64,000 nucleotides of DNA from an uncultured Spirochaetia bacterium (lineage in GTDB: Bacteria; Spirochaetota; Spirochaetia; CAKZLE01). The notes beneath the pieces were generated by a model. The model made no database searches and was not told the DNA's origin. It saw nothing but the letters and a program-made list of their open reading frames with translations. Shown here piece after piece: positions 1,902 through 13,964 of the stretch (position 1 is the stretch's first letter; every line of letters starts with the position of its first letter). A program made the position numbers and the translations under genes. The stretch spans positions 1-64,000 of the forward strand of contig CAKZLE010000027.1 in assembly GCA_937125225.1 (NCBI GenBank). Reading direction: 5' to 3'.

Positions 1902-2909
1902 TCAATTGAGATATGCTTTGACTGTCTGTAGCAGGTCTTCGACCTTAAAGGGTTTGAGCAGATACCCACTATAGAGCGAATCGCTCTTATCCTGGTCGTC
2001 CTCTGAGTTCAGAGTGCCTGAGACGATCACGATCGGTACTTGGCTAGTCTCTCGAATAATATGACACAATTGAATACCTGAGATATCAGGGAGCCCTCGG
2101 TCAGCGAGGATGAGTCGAGGATGTATCAGGGAGAGCACCTGTAATGCACTACTACCGTTCGTAGCGGTAAGGACCTCATATTCCTGAGATAGAATAGTCA
2201 CCATGAGTTGGAGCATTATGGTCTGATCATCGATAGTCAGTATGAACGGCTTTCCCGATAGACGATGATCTATTGGACTCGATGCTTTCACTTCATACAT
2301 ATCGAGTAGTGGTTGAAGTTCATCTAACGCAAGATGAAAGAGAAAATCTTTCAATAGACCTTTGAGGTGATCAAGGTGCCTGACAGCAGTTTCAGGAAGT
2401 CCCTTTGCGATGAGTTCTGAGATGACCTCCGCAGAGACTCTAGGACTATGGATCTTAATAGCTCCATACAGTTCTTTCAGTAGACTCTTAACAGTAGTCG
2501 AAGCAAGTGGTGCCTCAACTTCAGCTAGTTCTTCGACCCTCTCTCCGTGTATATAGGTGAGGGTGAGTCTCTTGGAGATTTCCGTCTTCTGGCTAAGGTC
2601 TTTGGTGAGGTCTGCTAGTACCTCAGATTCGATGAGATCACCTTTTAGATAGTCCTCAAGTGTCTGTAGTGCCTCATAGAGGTCTACAAGCCCTAAGATA
2701 CCTGCTGAACCTTTGATTCCATGGATGACTTTTGCAGCATCCTTGTTATTCTTCTCGATCAATACCTTCGTTACGATCTTGGCTATATCGGAGTATTCTC
2801 TGAAATAGATCTTGAGGGTCTTAGTATAGATCTCAGGTTGATTACCGAAACGTTTTAGTCCTTCAGTGAAATCTACAGGGTTCTCAAGGCTCATATTATC
2901 TTTTTTCAT
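1902..2909 (-). CDS. Hpt domain protein with C-terminal response-regulator receiver domain
   Basis: Hpt-like HGIKGSAGILGL motif; C-terminal REC (FILTIDDQTIMLQLM...LILADRGLPDISG...LLKPF). Confidence 0.8.
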   Translation of the reverse strand: MKKDNMSLENPVDFTEGLKRFGNQPEIYTKTLKIYFREYSDIAKIVTKVLIEKNNKDAAKVIHGIKGSAGILGLVDLYEALQTLEDYLKGDLIESEVLADLTKDLSQKTEISKRLTLTYIHGERVEELAEVEAPLASTTVKSLLKELYGAIKIHSPRVSAEVISELIAKGLPETAVRHLDHLKGLLKDFLFHLALDELQPLLDMYEVKASSPIDHRLSGKPFILTIDDQTIMLQLMVTILSQEYEVLTATNGSSALQVLSLIHPRLILADRGLPDISGIQLCHIIRETSQVPIVIVSGTLNSEDDQDKSDSLYSGYLLKPFKVEDLLQTVKAYLN

Positions 2910-2940
2910 AGGTATTCCTTTGAGCTTTCAAGAAGTGAGA

Positions 2941-3609
2941 TCAGGCCTCTTGGACTTGAGTGATGAAACCATTATTCACACCGATGACGATGATATCGAC
3001 TATTGATCTTGCATCTAACTTCTCCATGAGTCGACTCTTATAGGTACTAATGGATTTTCTTGAACAGCCCATCTCGAATGATATCTCTTTTAGGGTAAGT
3101 CCTTCACAGATATAATGGAAGACTAATCGTTCGCGTTCTGAGAGGGGTTCTATGATCGAATTGATGGTTGTGATGTTCTTCTCGATCTTCTTTTTCCCGA
3201 AGTGCAGGAGGTTCGTAGCATTCGGAGTAAGAAAGAGACCTCCATTCATCACAGAGATGATCGCCTGTTTCATGATCTCGATATCAAAAGACTTTGTCAG
3301 AAAGCCTCGGGCACCTTTTCGAATAGCCTTTACTGCATACTCCTCCTCACTGTGAGAGGTGAGGATGATGATCTTTGGTCTACTGAGGTGAGAGTTGAGT
3401 AGCTCGAGTAGTTCAAGATCCTTTACATCAGGTAGTTCGAGGTCTAGTAGGATGAGATCGATGTGTTCTTCGATCTCTTCTAGGTGATCCTTTACCATAC
3501 TAGCATTCTCATATTCCTGTAGGACCTCAATATCATCTTCTTGGGAAAGAAGCGCTTTTAGCCCGATACGGACGATCTCATGATCATCTATGATAGCGAT
3601 CGAAATCAT
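2941..3609 (-). CDS. NarL/FixJ-family response regulator
   Basis: REC domain (IAIIDDHEIVRIGLKALL, DLILLDLELP) and LuxR HTH (LSERERLVFHYICEGLTLKEISFEMGCSRKSISTYKSRLMEKL). Confidence 0.92.
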   Translation of the reverse strand: MISIAIIDDHEIVRIGLKALLSQEDDIEVLQEYENASMVKDHLEEIEEHIDLILLDLELPDVKDLELLELLNSHLSRPKIIILTSHSEEEYAVKAIRKGARGFLTKSFDIEIMKQAIISVMNGGLFLTPNATNLLHFGKKKIEKNITTINSIIEPLSERERLVFHYICEGLTLKEISFEMGCSRKSISTYKSRLMEKLDARSIVDIIVIGVNNGFITQVQEA

Positions 3610-4211: not shown

Positions 4212-4790
4212 ATGCAGAATTTACATTTGTTGTATGGATTGAAACTGATTCTGTTGATCATCATGATCATGTTGTGTTTCAGTGTGGATCAGCTGTTTGC
4301 CCAGCAATTAACTGCTTCGAGCTCCATCTCTGTTGTATTCTCCAATCCAGATGGATTGAGTGAATTGGGACTTGGTGAGAATCCGGTATTATTGATGGTG
4401 CATGAGATCGCCCCAATGGTTGTTCCAGGCGAACCCTATACCCCGATCATTACTTCGGATTCCAAGATAGGTAGTCGTTTACAGTATTCTGTGGTCTCAG
4501 ACCTACAGAATAAGAGGATTGTTGTTTATACAAATGACAATATCCCTTCTGGTCTGTTATTCGTAGAGATCGCCAATGATGATGAATCATTCGGGACTGG
4601 AGATTCTGGCTCTGCGAATCGAAAGAGGATTGGCATCAGTGCTACTCCACAGACAATCGTTGAAGGAATCGGAACTTGCTTCACAGGCACTTCCGAGAAT
4701 GATGGACCATTACTCAAGTACACCTTGAGTGATGAACCTGTCACTGCATACATCACCGTATGCTATGCGATGGTCGATGAAACAAATTAA
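4212..4790 (+). CDS. Secreted protein, putative fibre/pilin-like subunit
   Basis: Signal peptide (LKLILLIIMIMLCFSVDQLFAQ); CFTGTSENDGPLLKYTL motif shared with downstream paralogues. Confidence 0.6.
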   Translation: MQNLHLLYGLKLILLIIMIMLCFSVDQLFAQQLTASSSISVVFSNPDGLSELGLGENPVLLMVHEIAPMVVPGEPYTPIITSDSKIGSRLQYSVVSDLQNKRIVVYTNDNIPSGLLFVEIANDDESFGTGDSGSANRKRIGISATPQTIVEGIGTCFTGTSENDGPLLKYTLSDEPVTAYITVCYAMVDETN

Positions 4791-4797
4791 TAAAAGT

Positions 4798-5475
4798 ATG
4801 ACAATTAAGAGATGGATGAAGATGACGGGATGGATGACGTTGCTGGTACTGGGGACAGTTATCAATGCAGCGGATTCAACAAGTGTCAGTGAGATGATAG
4901 GGGTCGTTGAGTATGAATCCCTAGGATCGATCGTGACTGTTGGATTATCCGATTATAAAGGATCAGTCAATTCGTCAGACATAGAGCAGGTGAATCTGGT
5001 GGATACCATTGGTAATACCCTCATCCTGCATGCACATGAAGGGAGGACCTTTGGGTATGGTGCTCGGTTGCAGTATACATTGTATGGTGCTGATGCTGTA
5101 GCAGATACCTATAAGATCACAGCCCACACCAATGCTAGAGGGGATTCGAAGGTGTTGATCGGGATCTATTCGATCTCGGAACCTCCGAAGGTAGAAGATA
5201 ATGTATCAGGGTATCTTGGAGATATTAACCGGGATAGCTCCTTTTATAACGGAGAGGAGCAAGAAAGTAGAAAGCAGAAGTATGAGGGTTTGTTTCCAGA
5301 TGGAGATGCCCCAGCGATGTTTCTGTTGAAAGAGAAAGAGTCGGTCGACATCATAGTGAATATCAGTGCTGCTGATACTTGGACCGGTTCTTCACCTGCT
5401 GAGGGAGCTTGGGTGTTTTATGAGTTACTTGAACAGGAGACTGTCGAGATCTACTTCACCATCGTTCCTCAGTAG
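4798..5475 (+). CDS. Secreted protein, putative fibre subunit paralogue
   Basis: Inside ORF 4729..5475, ATG 4798 (MTIKRWMKMTG...) preferred; TWTGSSPAEGAWVFYELL motif; RLQYTLYG, PAMFLL. Confidence 0.6.
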   Translation: MTIKRWMKMTGWMTLLVLGTVINAADSTSVSEMIGVVEYESLGSIVTVGLSDYKGSVNSSDIEQVNLVDTIGNTLILHAHEGRTFGYGARLQYTLYGADAVADTYKITAHTNARGDSKVLIGIYSISEPPKVEDNVSGYLGDINRDSSFYNGEEQESRKQKYEGLFPDGDAPAMFLLKEKESVDIIVNISAADTWTGSSPAEGAWVFYELLEQETVEIYFTIVPQ

Positions 5476-5572
5476 CATTTTTGATTTTGGTAACTACGAC
5501 TGATCGAATGACTGTCGTTCTTATATTGAACATGGCTATAGGTCATGAAATTTTCGAACAAGGGGTACTTTT

Positions 5573-6214
5573 ATGAAAAAGAGTATTATGGCAATGTTGG
5601 TTCTGTTAATTTCTTGTGGGATGATCTTCGCTGCAACTTCTGTCCAGGAGCAAGTCGGAACTGCTCAACAGGATGCAGAAGGTGCCGTAGTGACAATCGG
5701 TCTTTCAAACTATGAAGGCGTTCAGTTCGCTCTTTCTGGTGGGTATTACGCTGCCGCTCAACCTGGTGCTAAAGCAGTTGCTGTAGGATCTGGTGGTGGT
5801 AATAAATATGGTCCTGGTGCACGTCTCCAGTATACCTTATTCGGTAGTGGTGGTACTTACAAGATCTCTGCACTTACAGATGAGAGTGGTGATGGAAATA
5901 TTTTCGTTGGTGTGACAGAGGTAACTGATGACCCTGTATCCGGTGAAAGAACATCAGGGTCTATCGGTACTATCAATACAGATACAGATGTTGCTGACTA
6001 TAATGGTGAAAGTGGAATAGCTAGATCCTACGGCCTTGGGAGTGATCCAGCAATGTTCCTGTTGAATTCTGTGACTGCTGACACTCTTATTACCTCGATT
6101 GCAAGTGCTGATACCTGGACAGGTACTACTTCTGATGATGGTCCTCAGCTCTATTATGAACTGACAGATACCATCAGTTGTGTAGTAACTTACACTATCG
6201 CTGCTGAAGTTTAG
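5573..6214 (+). CDS. Secreted protein, putative major fibre subunit paralogue
   Basis: Signal peptide; VVTIGLSNYEGVQFALSGG, TWTGTTSDDGPQLYYEL, C-term VTYTIAAEV shared with the next gene. Confidence 0.65.
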   Translation: MKKSIMAMLVLLISCGMIFAATSVQEQVGTAQQDAEGAVVTIGLSNYEGVQFALSGGYYAAAQPGAKAVAVGSGGGNKYGPGARLQYTLFGSGGTYKISALTDESGDGNIFVGVTEVTDDPVSGERTSGSIGTINTDTDVADYNGESGIARSYGLGSDPAMFLLNSVTADTLITSIASADTWTGTTSDDGPQLYYELTDTISCVVTYTIAAEV

Positions 6215-6225
6215 GAAAAACTGAT

Positions 6226-6259
6226 CATCGGACAGGTCCTGTGGGGGATCTGCCCGATG
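6226..6259 (+). terminator. Intercistronic stem-loop between two subunit genes
   Basis: catcggacaggtcc-tgtggg-ggatctgcccgatg: 14-position stem with one mismatch and one G-U. Confidence 0.45.
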
Positions 6260-6300
6260 CTTCACCTCGAAGAGGCTTCAGGCCGAATGAGAAAAGATTC

Positions 6301-6996
6301 ATGATGAAAGGTAAGAGTGTCCTGATCCTTCTCCTCCATGTTTTTTTTGTAATTAGTGTACTTTCAGCAGGGACGACGGTGACAGAACAGGTAAGTACTG
6401 CACAGTTGGCACCTTTTGGGAAAGTAGTGACGATAGGTCTTTCCGGATATGATGGGATTCATTTCTCCCTATCAGGAGGGATCTATTCTGCATCAAGACC
6501 TGGGGCGATGGCAATCGCTGTTGGTGCCGGTAAAGGGACGAAGTTAGGATATGGTTCAAGGCTTCAGTATTCGACGTATGGGAACGATGGCAGCTATAAG
6601 ATTACGGCTACGACTGACGAAGATGGTTCGAGTCGTATTCTTGTAGGTATCACCGATATCTCAAAGTCCCCATTTTCAGATATGAATGGCAATGGAGATT
6701 ACGAAGCTGAGAGCGATAGATTGTCTGGAAATCTTGGTACCATAGTGAATGATACGAAAAGTGGAGACAGGAATGGAACCGGTAACGATGCGACTACAAA
6801 GATCTATACCGATTATGGGGGAATAACCCCTTCGATGTACAGGCTGTTTATCGATGTAGAGAAGACGATCATAAGTGGGATTGATGGAAATGATGCCTGG
6901 ACTGGCACGACCGTGTCTGAAGGGGCCCAGTTGTTCTATGATATGGCTTTCCCCTGTGTTTGCTGGGTGACCTATACGATTGCAGCAGAGGCCTGA
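6301..6996 (+). CDS. Secreted protein, putative fibre subunit paralogue
   Basis: ORF 6241..6996 with probable start ATG 6301; signal peptide; VVTIGLSGYDGIHFSLSGG, AWTGTTVSEGAQLFYDM, VTYTIAAEA. Confidence 0.65.
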   Translation: MMKGKSVLILLLHVFFVISVLSAGTTVTEQVSTAQLAPFGKVVTIGLSGYDGIHFSLSGGIYSASRPGAMAIAVGAGKGTKLGYGSRLQYSTYGNDGSYKITATTDEDGSSRILVGITDISKSPFSDMNGNGDYEAESDRLSGNLGTIVNDTKSGDRNGTGNDATTKIYTDYGGITPSMYRLFIDVEKTIISGIDGNDAWTGTTVSEGAQLFYDMAFPCVCWVTYTIAAEA

Positions 6997-7010
6997 CAAG
7001 TAGGTGGAAG

Positions 7011-7496
7011 ATGGGATTGAGAAGAAAGATACTAGTTATGAGTTCTCTACTGATTCTAACAGTGGGGTCCCTTATAGCAGCTGATCTGACATTGATTCCA
7101 GAACAGGCAGGAGGCTGGTATATCCAGTTAGATGAGAACATGCTCTCACAAGGAGCCGGTTCAGACTTCTTATCTAGTATTGTAAGTAGTACGAGTTGTG
7201 AACGATTGGCTGTTGATACGGATACACAGGATGATCCCTGGAGTATTCTGGTAATGCTGCAAAGTGATGCAACCCCCTTTATTGTGGAGGTTCTCATCAC
7301 AGACGAAGGAGTTGGGGATCATACGGCCTCCTATAGTGATGATTTTCAAGTCGTATCTACCGAGAGCATGACCATGATAAGTGGGACTGGAGATAGATCA
7401 GATATCACAGTCCAATATCGGTTAACAGGGATTTCGATTGAGACGATATCCAGTACCCAATCAAGCATGGGTTTATTGTATGTATTGAGTCTATAA
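7011..7496 (+). CDS. Secreted protein, divergent putative fibre subunit
   Basis: ORF 6960..7496, ATG 7011 preferred (MGLRRKILVMSSLLILTVGSLIAA signal peptide); collinear with paralogues. Confidence 0.5.
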   Translation: MGLRRKILVMSSLLILTVGSLIAADLTLIPEQAGGWYIQLDENMLSQGAGSDFLSSIVSSTSCERLAVDTDTQDDPWSILVMLQSDATPFIVEVLITDEGVGDHTASYSDDFQVVSTESMTMISGTGDRSDITVQYRLTGISIETISSTQSSMGLLYVLSL

Positions 7497-7524
7497 CTAG
7501 TGAGAGACTAGGTGGGGGTTAGAG

Positions 7525-8337
7525 ATGTTTAGAGAGATTAGATCAGTAGAAAAAGTAGTTTTGATAACCATGATTCTAAGTCTATTCACCGGAAGTATGA
7601 TCTTCGGACAGATTTATATTACCAGTGATTTTATCACCGTCAATACTGTTCAAAAAGGAGATACCTATACTGGTGAAGTTTCAGTCATGAATGTCGGAGA
7701 TCGCGTCGAGCGAGTACGTCTGAGTCAGAATGACTATCTTTTCTATGCTAATGGGCAAGATGTCTATCCTGAGGCCGGCTATCTTGAAAGGTCCAACTCC
7801 TCATGGATCCAGTTTTCCCTCGATGACTTCAGTGTGAATCCAGGAGAAGAGAGAACGGTCTCCTATATCGTACGTGTTCCTTCTGAGAAAGAGTTAATTG
7901 GCTCCTATTGGAGTACTATCATGGTCCAGGCGATCACTGATACTGCCTTGAATGAGGAAAATGAAGGTACCGCTAAGGTGAATACGGCCTTGAGGTTCGC
8001 CTTACAGGTAGTCACCGAAATAGGAGATACCGGAATCGCAACTGTTGAGTTTCAGAATCCAAAGCATAAGGCTAGTGATGGGGAATGCTGCTTCTCAGTC
8101 GATATTGAGAATACAGGAGAGAAACACTTCAAACTTTTCTCTTCAGCAATCGTCTATTCCTCAGTCGGTAGTTATATTGGAACCTTCCCCGGAACAAGAA
8201 AGATCTGTTACCCTGGCTCATCTGTAAAACTCACGGTGGATCTCCCAGAACTAGAGAAGGGTAGTTACCAGATACAGTTCATTGCAGATGGTGGGGAGAA
8301 TGATATATTTGGTGCTCTGTATGGGTTGGAAATCTAG
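7525..8337 (+). CDS. PapD-like periplasmic chaperone-like protein (two Ig-like domains)
   Basis: Signal peptide; pattern SSWIQFSLDDFSVNPGEERTVSYIVRVPSEKELIGSYWSTIMVQA typical of chaperone N-domains. Confidence 0.55.
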   Translation: MFREIRSVEKVVLITMILSLFTGSMIFGQIYITSDFITVNTVQKGDTYTGEVSVMNVGDRVERVRLSQNDYLFYANGQDVYPEAGYLERSNSSWIQFSLDDFSVNPGEERTVSYIVRVPSEKELIGSYWSTIMVQAITDTALNEENEGTAKVNTALRFALQVVTEIGDTGIATVEFQNPKHKASDGECCFSVDIENTGEKHFKLFSSAIVYSSVGSYIGTFPGTRKICYPGSSVKLTVDLPELEKGSYQIQFIADGGENDIFGALYGLEI

Positions 8338-8351
8338 TAAAGAGATAACTT

Positions 8352-11099
8352 ATGCACAATCAGTTAAGGAGATTAACCATTATTCTGGTACTGTTATCTT
8401 GTACCATGATTCTCCTTGCTGAAACCACATTCCCTGTGGTAGAAGAGCAGCTACAAGTCACAGCCTCACAAGATCAGAAAGGAATAAGAATACAGCCAAG
8501 GTCTATCCAGATGGCTGTTTTCTTTATTAATAACATGACAGATCAATCTCAGTTGATTAGACCAGAATTCACTCTTCCAGTTGGATGGAACCCGATCATG
8601 CCCCCCTTTCCGGTAACGATAGCTGCCGGAGAGAGACAGCCTGTCTATTTCAGTTATCAGGTACCTGAGACTGCACTAGGTGGAGAACAGGAGATTATTT
8701 GCTCGATTACTCAACCTGATGGTACTGTCGTAAGCGACTCTCAGATAGTATTTGTTGAGTACCTGTATAAAATCCAACTATCCTTGATGAAATCAGGACT
8801 CTACGTTGAAGCGGGGGAGAGCTATACCTTTGATGTCTTACTTAAGAATGAGAGTAATATTGGAGCTGAGTTCAGCCTGCTCTTTGAGGAAGGATTTGGA
8901 TATGGGATATCACCTGATAAGAATGTTGAATCTCTATTTCTTGAGCCTCAAGAACTTGTTGCTGTCACAATTGAGGTCAAGACATCTAAAGAGATAGAAG
9001 AGATGGTCCTTCATGAGGTACAGGTCTCTGCACAGATCCTAGATCAGAATATTTCAAGAACAGAAAGTACCTCTATGGAGATCATTCCAAGTATACCCGG
9101 AGAGTCTGCCTATCATATGTATCCCATATCGATAAAGATGAGATCATCGGTAGAGATGGGAGATGAACTAAATAATATTAATAGTATATCGATCACAGGA
9201 AGTGGATCTATCCGTGATGATGGCTCTCATGTGATCGATTTCTCTATCAAACCTCCCTCCTTCCCCTTCTTGAGTTTGGATTTAACCGATACATCAGTTT
9301 CTCTCTCCTACGAACATGAGGGACTTTTTCTCTATAGTGGTACCCAAAGATCGTTCCCTATTGTAGGCTTGAGTTTGAGTAGCCTCTCAGGTCTTGGTAT
9401 CGGTACACACTACCAGTTAGATGATCACCTGAGGATCGAAGGAATACTTGTGGATCCCTCTAGTGATGATGATGAGAGTTCCTTTGGATTTGGGATCGAG
9501 AATGTCTTCAGTGATGGAAACAATATCTCTCTTGGGTTTCGTGCACCGATCGATGCTCCTGAAGATGGCTTTCTCGGGATGATGACTCATTTCAAACCTT
9601 ATGGTACTGCAACGATCTCTGGAGCGGCTTTGATGAGTATTGAGGACTCAGCGGCTTTCTCTTATCAAATATCCGCCGCTGATTCTGAACGTCTCTATGA
9701 TTATGCTTTGAGTAGAAGTTTTAAGAGTGCTGCATATGCAGAGAGTGAACAAGGTATCGATACCTATAGCTTGACAGGATCTATGAGGGTGATCCCAAAC
9801 CTGAAAATCTCAGGTAGTTTCGATAGGAATATGAATAATATCTCACTAATACAGAGTGTATCTACTTCTCTTACAACGCAAACAATCAAATTTGGCGTAT
9901 ACTGGTTGCCAGCATCTAATCTATCGATCCAGCTCAACCAGGAGTTCTATCGCCAATGGGACTTGTTAGAACAGGTATCTCTCCAGACCTTGCGGGATAC
10001 GACATCTCTTAGATTTTCCTATCGTAAGAACAAGATCTCATTGACCCCCTCTGTGAGTATCAAGAGTATGAGAAACACGATCACAGGGATGACTTATTCA
10101 AGTATGGTCTCAAGGATCAATTGTGACTATACCCTCAATCCTAGAGCTCGTTTTTCCTCCTCGGTCATCTATGACTCTGGAGCAAATGATCCTGGAATCA
10201 CAGACTCTATCTTGAGTTGGTCGCTTGCAACAGTACTGAATCCTGATATAGCTGTCGGAGTGACCGCCGGTTTCTCCCAAACATACTATCCCTTTGAACC
10301 TGATGATTCTATTAGCAGTCTACGCTTTGGTATGACCTTACAGAAAGAGGCCTTCGGGGCTCTCTCCTTCAATTTCCTTCATACACTAGAACATGAAATT
10401 GGTGCTATTAGTGACGTAACCGTCTCCATAGTCTATGCATTACCCTTGACGATCAATATTCCGGTAAGTCTAAGAACGGACGTTGGCTCTCTAGAAGGTG
10501 TCATCTATCATAAAGACACTAACCTCCCTCTTAAGAGGGTTCTCGTGACTGTTGGTGATATGTCAGTCCTGACTGATGATGAGGGCCGCTACTCCTTTAA
10601 AGCTCTACCACCGGGCGAGGTCACCATAGGTGTCTCTGCACCAGATCATAAGGACTATATCGTCGCTGGGAAATATCCCCTTGAGCTAACTATAGAGAAG
10701 TCAGGATCTCACATAGTAGATATTCCTATGGTAGAGAAAGCGACGATATCTGGTAATGTACTTCGTTTTGAGAAGAAACCTGGGACAGGTTTCTTTATGA
10801 TAGCTCCAGAATATTATAAGGATGGAGGATTCTCCGGGTTAGTAGTAGAACTCACAGGAGAGTTCGGGGTACGACGGGAAGCTACGAAGAACGATGGGAC
10901 CTTCTCCTTCACCTCAGTTGTTCCGGGGGCTGTACAATTGAGAGTCTATACAGAACAGTTACCTGATACTCATGAGTTAGTAGAGAACCTTATTGAATTC
11001 ACATTAGAACCTGGAGAGAGCAGTTCACACGATTTTGAGGTAAAACCTATCGTAAGACTGATACAGTTCGTACAGGAGGGAGTCATTGCAATTGATTAG
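8352..11099 (+). CDS. Usher-like outer-membrane beta-barrel protein with N-terminal Ig-like and C-terminal carboxypeptidase-regulatory-like domains
   Basis: 915 aa, signal peptide; N-term Ig/NEW3-like, central alternating beta-strand region, C-term GVIYHKDTNLPLKRVLVTVGDMSVLTDDEGRYSFKALPPG. Confidence 0.55.
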   Translation: MHNQLRRLTIILVLLSCTMILLAETTFPVVEEQLQVTASQDQKGIRIQPRSIQMAVFFINNMTDQSQLIRPEFTLPVGWNPIMPPFPVTIAAGERQPVYFSYQVPETALGGEQEIICSITQPDGTVVSDSQIVFVEYLYKIQLSLMKSGLYVEAGESYTFDVLLKNESNIGAEFSLLFEEGFGYGISPDKNVESLFLEPQELVAVTIEVKTSKEIEEMVLHEVQVSAQILDQNISRTESTSMEIIPSIPGESAYHMYPISIKMRSSVEMGDELNNINSISITGSGSIRDDGSHVIDFSIKPPSFPFLSLDLTDTSVSLSYEHEGLFLYSGTQRSFPIVGLSLSSLSGLGIGTHYQLDDHLRIEGILVDPSSDDDESSFGFGIENVFSDGNNISLGFRAPIDAPEDGFLGMMTHFKPYGTATISGAALMSIEDSAAFSYQISAADSERLYDYALSRSFKSAAYAESEQGIDTYSLTGSMRVIPNLKISGSFDRNMNNISLIQSVSTSLTTQTIKFGVYWLPASNLSIQLNQEFYRQWDLLEQVSLQTLRDTTSLRFSYRKNKISLTPSVSIKSMRNTITGMTYSSMVSRINCDYTLNPRARFSSSVIYDSGANDPGITDSILSWSLATVLNPDIAVGVTAGFSQTYYPFEPDDSISSLRFGMTLQKEAFGALSFNFLHTLEHEIGAISDVTVSIVYALPLTINIPVSLRTDVGSLEGVIYHKDTNLPLKRVLVTVGDMSVLTDDEGRYSFKALPPGEVTIGVSAPDHKDYIVAGKYPLELTIEKSGSHIVDIPMVEKATISGNVLRFEKKPGTGFFMIAPEYYKDGGFSGLVVELTGEFGVRREATKNDGTFSFTSVVPGAVQLRVYTEQLPDTHELVENLIEFTLEPGESSSHDFEVKPIVRLIQFVQEGVIAID

Positions 11100-11790
11100 A
11101 AATACCCTGATCTTATTCATGCTCCTCTTCTCAATCAGTTCAGTATGTGCTCTTCAGAGTGAATATATTGAGAATAGACAGAGTGGGGCAGGAGTAGTCA
11201 GTTCATTTCATTATTTGAACGGAAGCCCAAAACTGGTTATCGAACCCTCTTATTCGATTGATGGCTATATGGATATCGGGGTATCCGTCGATATCAAGTG
11301 GGGTGAGGATCTTCTTGATACCCCCTCTCGTGAGACAGATGCAACGATCTCTCTCGGTTTCTCAGCTTTCAAACAGGATCAGATCATGCCTGTCTCTGTA
11401 TTGTTGCAGATGGGACTTCATTATCTTTCAGAGATCAGTGATGAATATGAGGATAACGATATCATCTCCTCTGGTACCGGCTTCAGTATCGGAGCAAAGA
11501 TCTTCAGATATGAAGCGTTGATCCCCCGCCTGTATATACGTTTTGGCATCGAGGCGAACCAACGGTTGGATACGATAATCATTGATCAACCCTCAGGTTC
11601 TTCATTGCTCCCTATGAGTACTACGAGGAACACTTTTACTTATGGAGTGTTAACAGGTTTGACTTTGCGACCGAATACTCCGAATAAGGGGGTTGCCACA
11701 TCCTGTGACATCGGCCTGTATCGTAATTCGAACGGGGAATATGGGGTCACAGGTTCTGTAGTGTTTACACTAGTCGAGAATCAATACTGA
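11086..11790 (+). CDS. Outer-membrane-like exported hypothetical protein
   Basis: TTG start overlapping upstream stop; signal peptide; alternating beta-strand composition. Confidence 0.55.
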   Translation: MQLIRNTLILFMLLFSISSVCALQSEYIENRQSGAGVVSSFHYLNGSPKLVIEPSYSIDGYMDIGVSVDIKWGEDLLDTPSRETDATISLGFSAFKQDQIMPVSVLLQMGLHYLSEISDEYEDNDIISSGTGFSIGAKIFRYEALIPRLYIRFGIEANQRLDTIIIDQPSGSSLLPMSTTRNTFTYGVLTGLTLRPNTPNKGVATSCDIGLYRNSNGEYGVTGSVVFTLVENQY

Positions 11791-11804
11791 ATAAGGTGAT
11801 ACAA

Positions 11805-13964
11805 ATGAGTGAAGAGAAAGACAGATCTGAAGAGATCAAAAAGAAAGAAGAGATTCATGTTCCTTTACACCTGAAACATCGACCGATTCTCGGTCTCGAG
11901 CAGTATGAACAGGCAGATGGACATAAAGCGGGTAATTCAGAGGCTAAAGGCCTCTCTATAGGTCTTGCTCAATGGAATTCTGATGAGACAAGTGAAGTCT
12001 CAGCTAAGATCTGGAGACATACTGGAGAGAAATGGTCAAGACAATCAGAAGAGATGGCTCTTCACCGGATCGTAGATCTTACCATTCTGATCGCAAGGAC
12101 CAGACTGCTCTTCAAGCGATTCAAACCAACCAAGCTCAAAGAGAAACCTGGATACCCCTTGATTGATGAACTCAACCTACAGGGTGAGTCACTACCGGTA
12201 AGTGCCTGTGTTGAGAGTGAGACCTTTGAAGATGATGTAGTCCAATTTGAAAAAGCGATGACTAAGGAGGAGATGATCCTTAAAGATCGGTTTTCGGTTC
12301 TTACCGAGATTCTCCTAGAGACTGATAAAGTGATCAGGGAAAAGAGCGAGAAAGACCTAAGATCTGAGACTCAGTTCTTAGGTGAAGAAAGAGTTCACGG
12401 TTCAGAAGAAGTCACAGTCTCTAATGACTTTTCCTCAGGGGGAGAGAGACGTTGGTTCAAAAGGATCTCTCTCAAGGATCTCATCCTTACCTTGATCGCT
12501 TTCATCAGTATAGTGACTGCAATATTCTTTGCGGGTAGGGTTAGGGACTTTCAGGATCTGAGCCTCAACCCAAATGATATCATCATCACCGAGACGTCAG
12601 AGGAGATCGTTGATCTATGGATCAGACAGAAGAACGGAATCGAGTCGGTCATGATCACAAAACAGATCATCGATTATGGAACTGGAACAGGCCACTATAC
12701 CTGCCTAGATCCGGGGGCTCATCTCGCTTTTGAGGGAGAGAAGCGACTCGTAGAGGGTGTCTTCTTCGGCGCAGATGAGATGGGGTATCCTCTTGTGGAT
12801 TCGACGACAGAGAAGCATCCAAGATTGGGAGCGGCCTATCACCTGCGTCTACCAAGAGAGATACTCTATCAGTCAGGGGATGGGGATTATCATGCTCTGT
12901 CTCTCTACCATGGATCACCCTTTACGATCACCTCTTTCAGAGAGGACTTTGCCGATTATACTGGTGACTATCGTATCAATCCTTTCACACTACATGCAGA
13001 GAAATGGACTTCAAAGGAGCCCTTCTATGGGACCTATTCTATGGAAGTCTTGGCCGAACGGCTCAATGAGGATGTGAATGGGCTCGAAGAGAGACTCAGG
13101 GGTGACTTTGAGGTTTACCAGCAGGAACAGGAACTAAGATTGAAGGATCTCAGGACTGAGGGAGTGGTTGTCGCTTCAGATCTGCAAGATAAGATCGAAG
13201 ATCTTGAAAGACGTCTTAGACTTGAGTATGCAGCTGATCTCGATAGATTATATGAAACAGCTGAGACGGTGATAGAGGAACTTCAAGCGGCAGATACCTT
13301 CATGAAAGAGGAGGCTTCACGACTGATGGTAACGTTATATGCTGATCTAGAGACAGCCCTCGGAACACTTGAGACCGCCTTAACTAGTGAGCTTGCAGAG
13401 CTCGATTCCAGTTTCTCAGATGAGCTTGCAGCATATAGAGAGGAGATCTCTACACTCATAGCGAACACTCCAACATCACAGGAAGAGGAATTACCTCTTG
13501 TTGATTTAATTCAGGTAGAAAAGATCGAAGATGAATTAGGAGATCTTCAGAAAGAGCTAGATAGACAAAGAGATAAGCTTGAGGCTCAGTATAACTCCTT
13601 TACCTCCTACTTTGAGACTGTCAACGAGCGGCTTGATACTACTGAAGGAGAGGTAAGTGGTCTTGAGACAGCAGGGAAAGAACAGAAGGACGCCTCTGAT
13701 TCGATGTATATCAAAATCGAAAATGTTACTCAGGAAGTAGCAAGACTCAGGAATGCGGTTATGATGTTCAACAATATGGGAGTCTTCGGATCGATCAGAC
13801 CAATCAATAAGGATGCAGTCAAGATGATCATGGAATATAAGGAAAATAATAACGATCTGACTCAACAAGAGGCATTAGAAGCCCTCCATAAAGATGGATT
13901 CACTATCAGTTCTTATGAAGTATTTCTGATCTTCAGCGTCTATTTCAATGAATACAAACTATAG
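11805..13964 (+). CDS. Coiled-coil protein with a single transmembrane helix, hypothetical
   Basis: ATG 11805 (MSEEKDRSEEIK); TM LKDLILTLIAFISIVTAIFFAG; long C-terminal coiled coil. Confidence 0.6.
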   Translation: MSEEKDRSEEIKKKEEIHVPLHLKHRPILGLEQYEQADGHKAGNSEAKGLSIGLAQWNSDETSEVSAKIWRHTGEKWSRQSEEMALHRIVDLTILIARTRLLFKRFKPTKLKEKPGYPLIDELNLQGESLPVSACVESETFEDDVVQFEKAMTKEEMILKDRFSVLTEILLETDKVIREKSEKDLRSETQFLGEERVHGSEEVTVSNDFSSGGERRWFKRISLKDLILTLIAFISIVTAIFFAGRVRDFQDLSLNPNDIIITETSEEIVDLWIRQKNGIESVMITKQIIDYGTGTGHYTCLDPGAHLAFEGEKRLVEGVFFGADEMGYPLVDSTTEKHPRLGAAYHLRLPREILYQSGDGDYHALSLYHGSPFTITSFREDFADYTGDYRINPFTLHAEKWTSKEPFYGTYSMEVLAERLNEDVNGLEERLRGDFEVYQQEQELRLKDLRTEGVVVASDLQDKIEDLERRLRLEYAADLDRLYETAETVIEELQAADTFMKEEASRLMVTLYADLETALGTLETALTSELAELDSSFSDELAAYREEISTLIANTPTSQEEELPLVDLIQVEKIEDELGDLQKELDRQRDKLEAQYNSFTSYFETVNERLDTTEGEVSGLETAGKEQKDASDSMYIKIENVTQEVARLRNAVMMFNNMGVFGSIRPINKDAVKMIMEYKENNNDLTQQEALEALHKDGFTISSYEVFLIFSVYFNEYKL

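Follow-up and report, generated by a model that had tools for sequence, protein, structure and literature searches.

A WxLIP-like two-domain protein and a large outer-membrane-like partner in a candidate chaperone/usher-like surface locus of a probable spirochaete

Small secreted proteins encoded beside a two-domain immunoglobulin-like (two-Ig) protein and a large barrel-like protein raise the question of whether such genes form a fibre or coat assembly system and, if so, to which family it belongs. The locus considered here lies in an uncultured Spirochaetia bacterium (assembly GCA_937125225.1), and the window is the whole stretch of DNA that was analysed (64,000 nt, positions 1-64,000 of contig CAKZLE010000027.1). 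A sequence-only reading of this stretch had proposed a divergent chaperone-usher (CU) system, made of five consecutive small secreted proteins, a PapD-like protein, an usher-like protein of 915 aa and a smaller OMP-like protein. The ORF listing of the window bears out this arrangement: between 4212 and 11790, all of the named ORFs are present, nearly contiguous and on the + strand, in the following order (genes are named by their start positions).

4212..4790, + strand: subunit 1, 192 aa, secreted, C-terminal end ITVCYAMVDETN (ORF; blastp)
4777..5475, + strand: subunit 2, about 219-232 aa, start uncertain (4777, 4798 or 4816) (ORF; blastp)
5573..6214, + strand: subunit 3, 213 aa, secreted, C-terminal end VTYTIAAEV (ORF; blastp)
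6301..6996, + strand: subunit 4, 231 aa, secreted, C-terminal end VTYTIAAEA (ORF; blastp)
7011..7496, + strand: small secreted protein 5, 161 aa (ORF)
7525..8337, + strand: two-Ig WxLIP/DUF916-like protein, 270 aa, apparently soluble; proposed subunit chaperone (homologues, family profiles)
8352..11099, + strand: 915-aa protein; proposed outer-membrane export/assembly platform (Pfam, composition, Deinococcus relatives)
11086..11790, + strand: OMP-like secreted protein, 234 aa; possible accessory barrel (ORF)

Among the small secreted proteins, four (4212, about 4777, 5573 and 6301) of the five are paralogues, with blastp E-values from 5e-5 to 3e-57. The closest are 5573 and 6301 (44% identity, E=3e-57), 4777 is a paralogue of 5573 (E=6e-35), and the C-terminal half of 4212 is related to 5573 (5e-5). 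No blastp link was found between the 7011 protein and the other four. A subunit profile matches 4212 at E=2e-60, a match by construction, as 4212 is itself part of that profile. An AF2 model of 5573 (with four paralogues) has a pLDDT of 50.8, too low to interpret, and its Foldseek matches are generic jelly-rolls. At the other end of the locus, the 11086 protein, for which no Pfam family match was found, is presumably a member of the system, given that the first 14 nt of its gene overlap with the end of 8352. The source genome encodes Omp85 (5e-14), so the host has an outer membrane. The organism is probably a spirochaete, judging from phylum-mates with a likeness to Borrelia-type and Leptospira-type genomes; a FlaA family search was negative, as it also was in every control genome. 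Upstream of the cluster, on the opposite strand (1902-3609), are response regulators, one with Hpt plus receiver and one NarL-like, which might be regulators. Directly 3' of it (11796-13964) is a 722-aa protein with a DUF6530 domain (E=3e-48), a TM segment and a long coiled coil.

The 7525 protein is secreted and consists of two Ig-like halves, and to this extent its description as a PapD-like two-Ig protein stands; assignment to the PapD family does not. Neither the window proteins nor the members of the two-Ig family match the PapD-type chaperone family PF00345, whereas CU chaperones from other genomes of the phylum (phylum-mates) match it at 3e-10. In profile comparisons, the two-Ig family aligns over both domains with actinobacterial DUF916/WxLIP proteins (98.9%, E=1.7e-17), against which control CU chaperones give 28% and 0.3%. 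The family profile also matches the solved EfmWxLIP1 in the PDB (E=1.2e-6), where phylum-mate CU chaperones find CsuC and EcpB instead. Compared directly with CU chaperones, the family aligns over both domains with those of the phylum-mates (86.8%, E=4e-6), and over the first domain with those of E. coli (50%). Altogether, profile comparison places the two-Ig family with DUF916/WxLIP and not with CU chaperones such as PapD/CsuC. Taken alone, 7525 is weakly similar to the WxLIP profile (11%, E=2.8e-3), and the assignment therefore leans on its Deinococcus relatives. WxLIP proteins normally have a C-terminal TM helix. The C-terminal end of 7525 (...GENDIFGALYGLEI) contains no hydrophobic helix of this kind, so the protein looks soluble.

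WxLIP has been described as a stabilising and anchoring partner, and AlphaFold modelling suggests that a hairpin strand of DUF916 fills a gap in the WxL sandwich (PMC10599100). Because this completion of WxL by a lent strand resembles donor-strand complementation, 7525 may still work in a chaperone-usher-like manner, and the mechanistic idea of the sequence-only reading can survive though its family assignment fails. Actinobacterial DUF916 proteins adjoin WxL or WxL-like proteins. Among the window subunits, no match to the WxL domain (PF13731) was found with Pfam, and their profile did not match actinobacterial WxL-like proteins (0.2%). No paper combining DUF916 and Deinococcus was found in the literature library searched.

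The 915-aa protein 8352 consists of an N-terminal Ig/NEW3 region (about 25-250), a barrel-like region (about 255-705) and a C-terminal CarboxypepD_reg region (about 710-905). Pfam matches are NEW3 at 56-118 and two CarboxypepD_reg stretches (E=7.9e-12). In the middle region (255-705), K+E falls to 6.2% compared with 14-15% in the flanks, G+N+S+T reaches 33.5% and aromatics 10.2%, and there is one Cys. This outer-membrane-like composition is found in all six family members (8352 and five relatives). Single-sequence AF2 modelling of 8352 gave a pLDDT of 33, too low to interpret, and the 26 strand-like peaks in its middle carry no evidential weight, since the method calls peaks everywhere and misses the FimD barrel. 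Length and terminal domains agree with what had been proposed for 8352, and its middle is a putative barrel (24 strands in a true usher); homology to ushers was not confirmed. The Usher family PF00577 was not matched in 8352, in its five relatives or anywhere in the whole genome, and the usher plug-type motif PGxYxIxDL was not found in 8352. By hhalign, the 8352 family profile reaches 3.7% against E. coli ushers and 2.5% against phylum-mate ushers, whereas five phylum-mate ushers, combined in an equally shallow control profile, find those of E. coli at 99.1% (E=1.4e-18). Since the comparison fails where a matched control succeeds, the family label of divergent chaperone-usher is unsupported, while the parallel in layout holds. 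The NEW3 and CarboxypepD domains are common, and their presence in 8352 could reflect convergence.

Relatives of the locus were found outside the phylum. No second 8352 and no relative of the whole pair occurred in the 393 other genomes of a 394-genome scan of the phylum, and scans of genome contigs with the two-Ig protein as query gave no relatives; the gene order was found instead on plasmids of five Deinococcus, where a collinear pair of two-Ig protein and large protein has secreted subunits alongside (D. deserti DEIDE_RS15110-15125; D. psychrotolerans; strains D7000, NW-56 and AB2017081). In D. deserti, a full-length homologue of 7525 (4e-20, 28% identity) is directly followed by an 839-aa protein of NEW3, barrel-like and CarboxypepD_reg regions, which matches both ends of 8352 (pairwise 1e-9 and 2e-7), and small secreted proteins flank the pair on either side. 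On the other four plasmids the order is subunit, two-Ig protein, a protein of about 180 aa and one of 1013-1090 aa. The likeness to the window lies in a homologous two-Ig protein and a collinear large protein beside secreted proteins; the differences lie in the subunits, in the extra gene of about 180 aa in four of the five loci, and in SdrD_B and MG2-like C-terminal domains, which several of the Deinococcus large proteins have, unlike 8352. The conserved unit is the pair, and the subunits differ between loci to the point that homology is undetectable. An apparent homology between window and D. deserti subunits (99.5%) was dropped as circular, window 4212 being in both alignments; the comparison free of this circularity gives 0.2%. 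Annotation of the Deinococcus proteins goes no further than hypothetical, FimB/Mfa2 or carboxypeptidase regulatory-like. A Haloarcula match was also among those from the relative searches.

Set beside known systems, the window resembles the WxL/WxLIP (DUF916-DUF3324) clusters of Gram-positives in having small secreted proteins next to a two-Ig WxLIP-matching protein. It differs from them in that the subunits have no detectable WxL domain, 7525 lacks the C-terminal TM helix, the cluster includes a 915-aa barrel-like protein as an extra component, and the host has an outer membrane. With archaic/sigma chaperone-usher pili of the CsuC-CsuD type it shares the gene order of subunits, chaperone and large outer-membrane protein, a two-Ig chaperone candidate, and periplasmic-type domains at both ends of the large protein. 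The differences from these pili are a NEW3 tandem in 8352 in place of the usher N-domain and the missing PF00577, PF00345, usher profile and plug motif matches.

The explanation preferred here, which we hold tentatively, is a diderm variant of the WxL/WxLIP cluster, with an outer-membrane barrel either gained or retained, whose mode of action resembles that of a chaperone-usher pathway. A chaperone/usher-like function would be the most economical reading because the layout parallels that of chaperone-usher loci and conservation of the pair extends to Deinococcota. The five small proteins would be carried into the periplasm by Sec. There, 7525 would bind them, probably by donating an edge strand of the first of its Ig domains; a candidate strand, with polar/hydrophobic alternation, is AKVNTALRFALQVVT. 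The Ig/NEW3 tandem of 8352 would then capture the 7525-subunit complex and the barrel-like region would pass the subunit outward, with the CarboxypepD_reg domains handling subunit hand-over like usher C-terminal domains. Once outside, subunits may polymerise or coat the cell surface. A broader proposal, possible though rather doubtful, is that this probable spirochaete and Deinococcota have in common a second chaperone-usher-like type of assembly, with a WxLIP-family chaperone and a non-usher barrel, bridging Gram-positive WxL anchoring and diderm fibre assembly. If so, real intermediates would join the Gram-positive strand-lending partners to fibre assembly in diderms, and laboratory Deinococcus would offer a way to test an outer-membrane platform that is so far uncharacterised.

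A different role for the same parts is that of a surface anchor, in which 8352 would be an outer-membrane barrel scaffold holding a stable complex of 7525 and the small proteins, as a coat or S-layer-like array, on the model of Gram-positive walls, where WxLIP keeps WxL in place, and with no chaperone-style hand-over or polymerisation. The anchoring role described for the WxLIP family (PMC10599100) speaks for it, as does the fact that all parts are secreted while export and polymerisation are inferred. A series of paralogous subunits ahead of a partner and a large platform is more in keeping with an assembly line, and the apparent solubility of 7525 also argues against anchoring, which is considered unlikely. 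Chance adjacency, with a cluster of secreted proteins lying beside an OMP of other function, would agree with the weak similarity of 8352 to its Deinococcus counterpart and with the undetectable subunit homology across loci. Recurrence of the two-Ig/large-protein adjacency on five Deinococcus plasmids indicates more than chance, and the genes of the locus follow one another closely on a single strand, with 8352 and 11086 overlapping; unrelated neighbours are thus very improbable.

A true chaperone-usher system, with FimC/FimD homologues beyond profile detection, would share the layout and would account for the alignment of the 7525 family with CU chaperones. It would also agree with the CarboxypepD_reg-like domains in which phylum-mate ushers, like 8352, finish. 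Against it stand the lack of an usher profile match in 8352, where a profile of phylum-mate ushers, just as shallow, finds those of E. coli at E=1e-18, the absence of the plug-type motif, and the far greater similarity of the 7525 family to WxLIP than to CU chaperones; this origin is judged improbable. Ordinary-looking chaperone-usher operons, with a PapD_N chaperone, an Usher-type protein and small secreted subunits, occur elsewhere in the phylum, in eight genomes (L047 G295:C8; L048 G337:C5; L049 G131:C1; L050 G255:C68; L051 G374:C8; L052 G393:C6; L053 G227:C6; L054 G304:C9), only two of the eight passing the Usher cut-off. A 2015 paper lists archaic systems for Proteobacteria, Cyanobacteria and Deinococcus-Thermus only (PMC4654587).

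Loci in three further genomes of the phylum (G012, G036 and G025), previously weak matches, match the two-Ig family profile at 1e-7 to 5e-12, and no usher-like gene was found at them. At these loci (L014, L015, L016 and L072), a WxLIP-like two-Ig protein is paired with a secreted protein of 250-300 aa, together with proteins with FlgD/gliding-type C-termini and PorV-like OMPs, a third arrangement. On a 1.6 kb contig (L064, G096:C316), possibly monoderm contamination, a WxLIP-like protein with a C-terminal TM helix adjoins a secreted protein.
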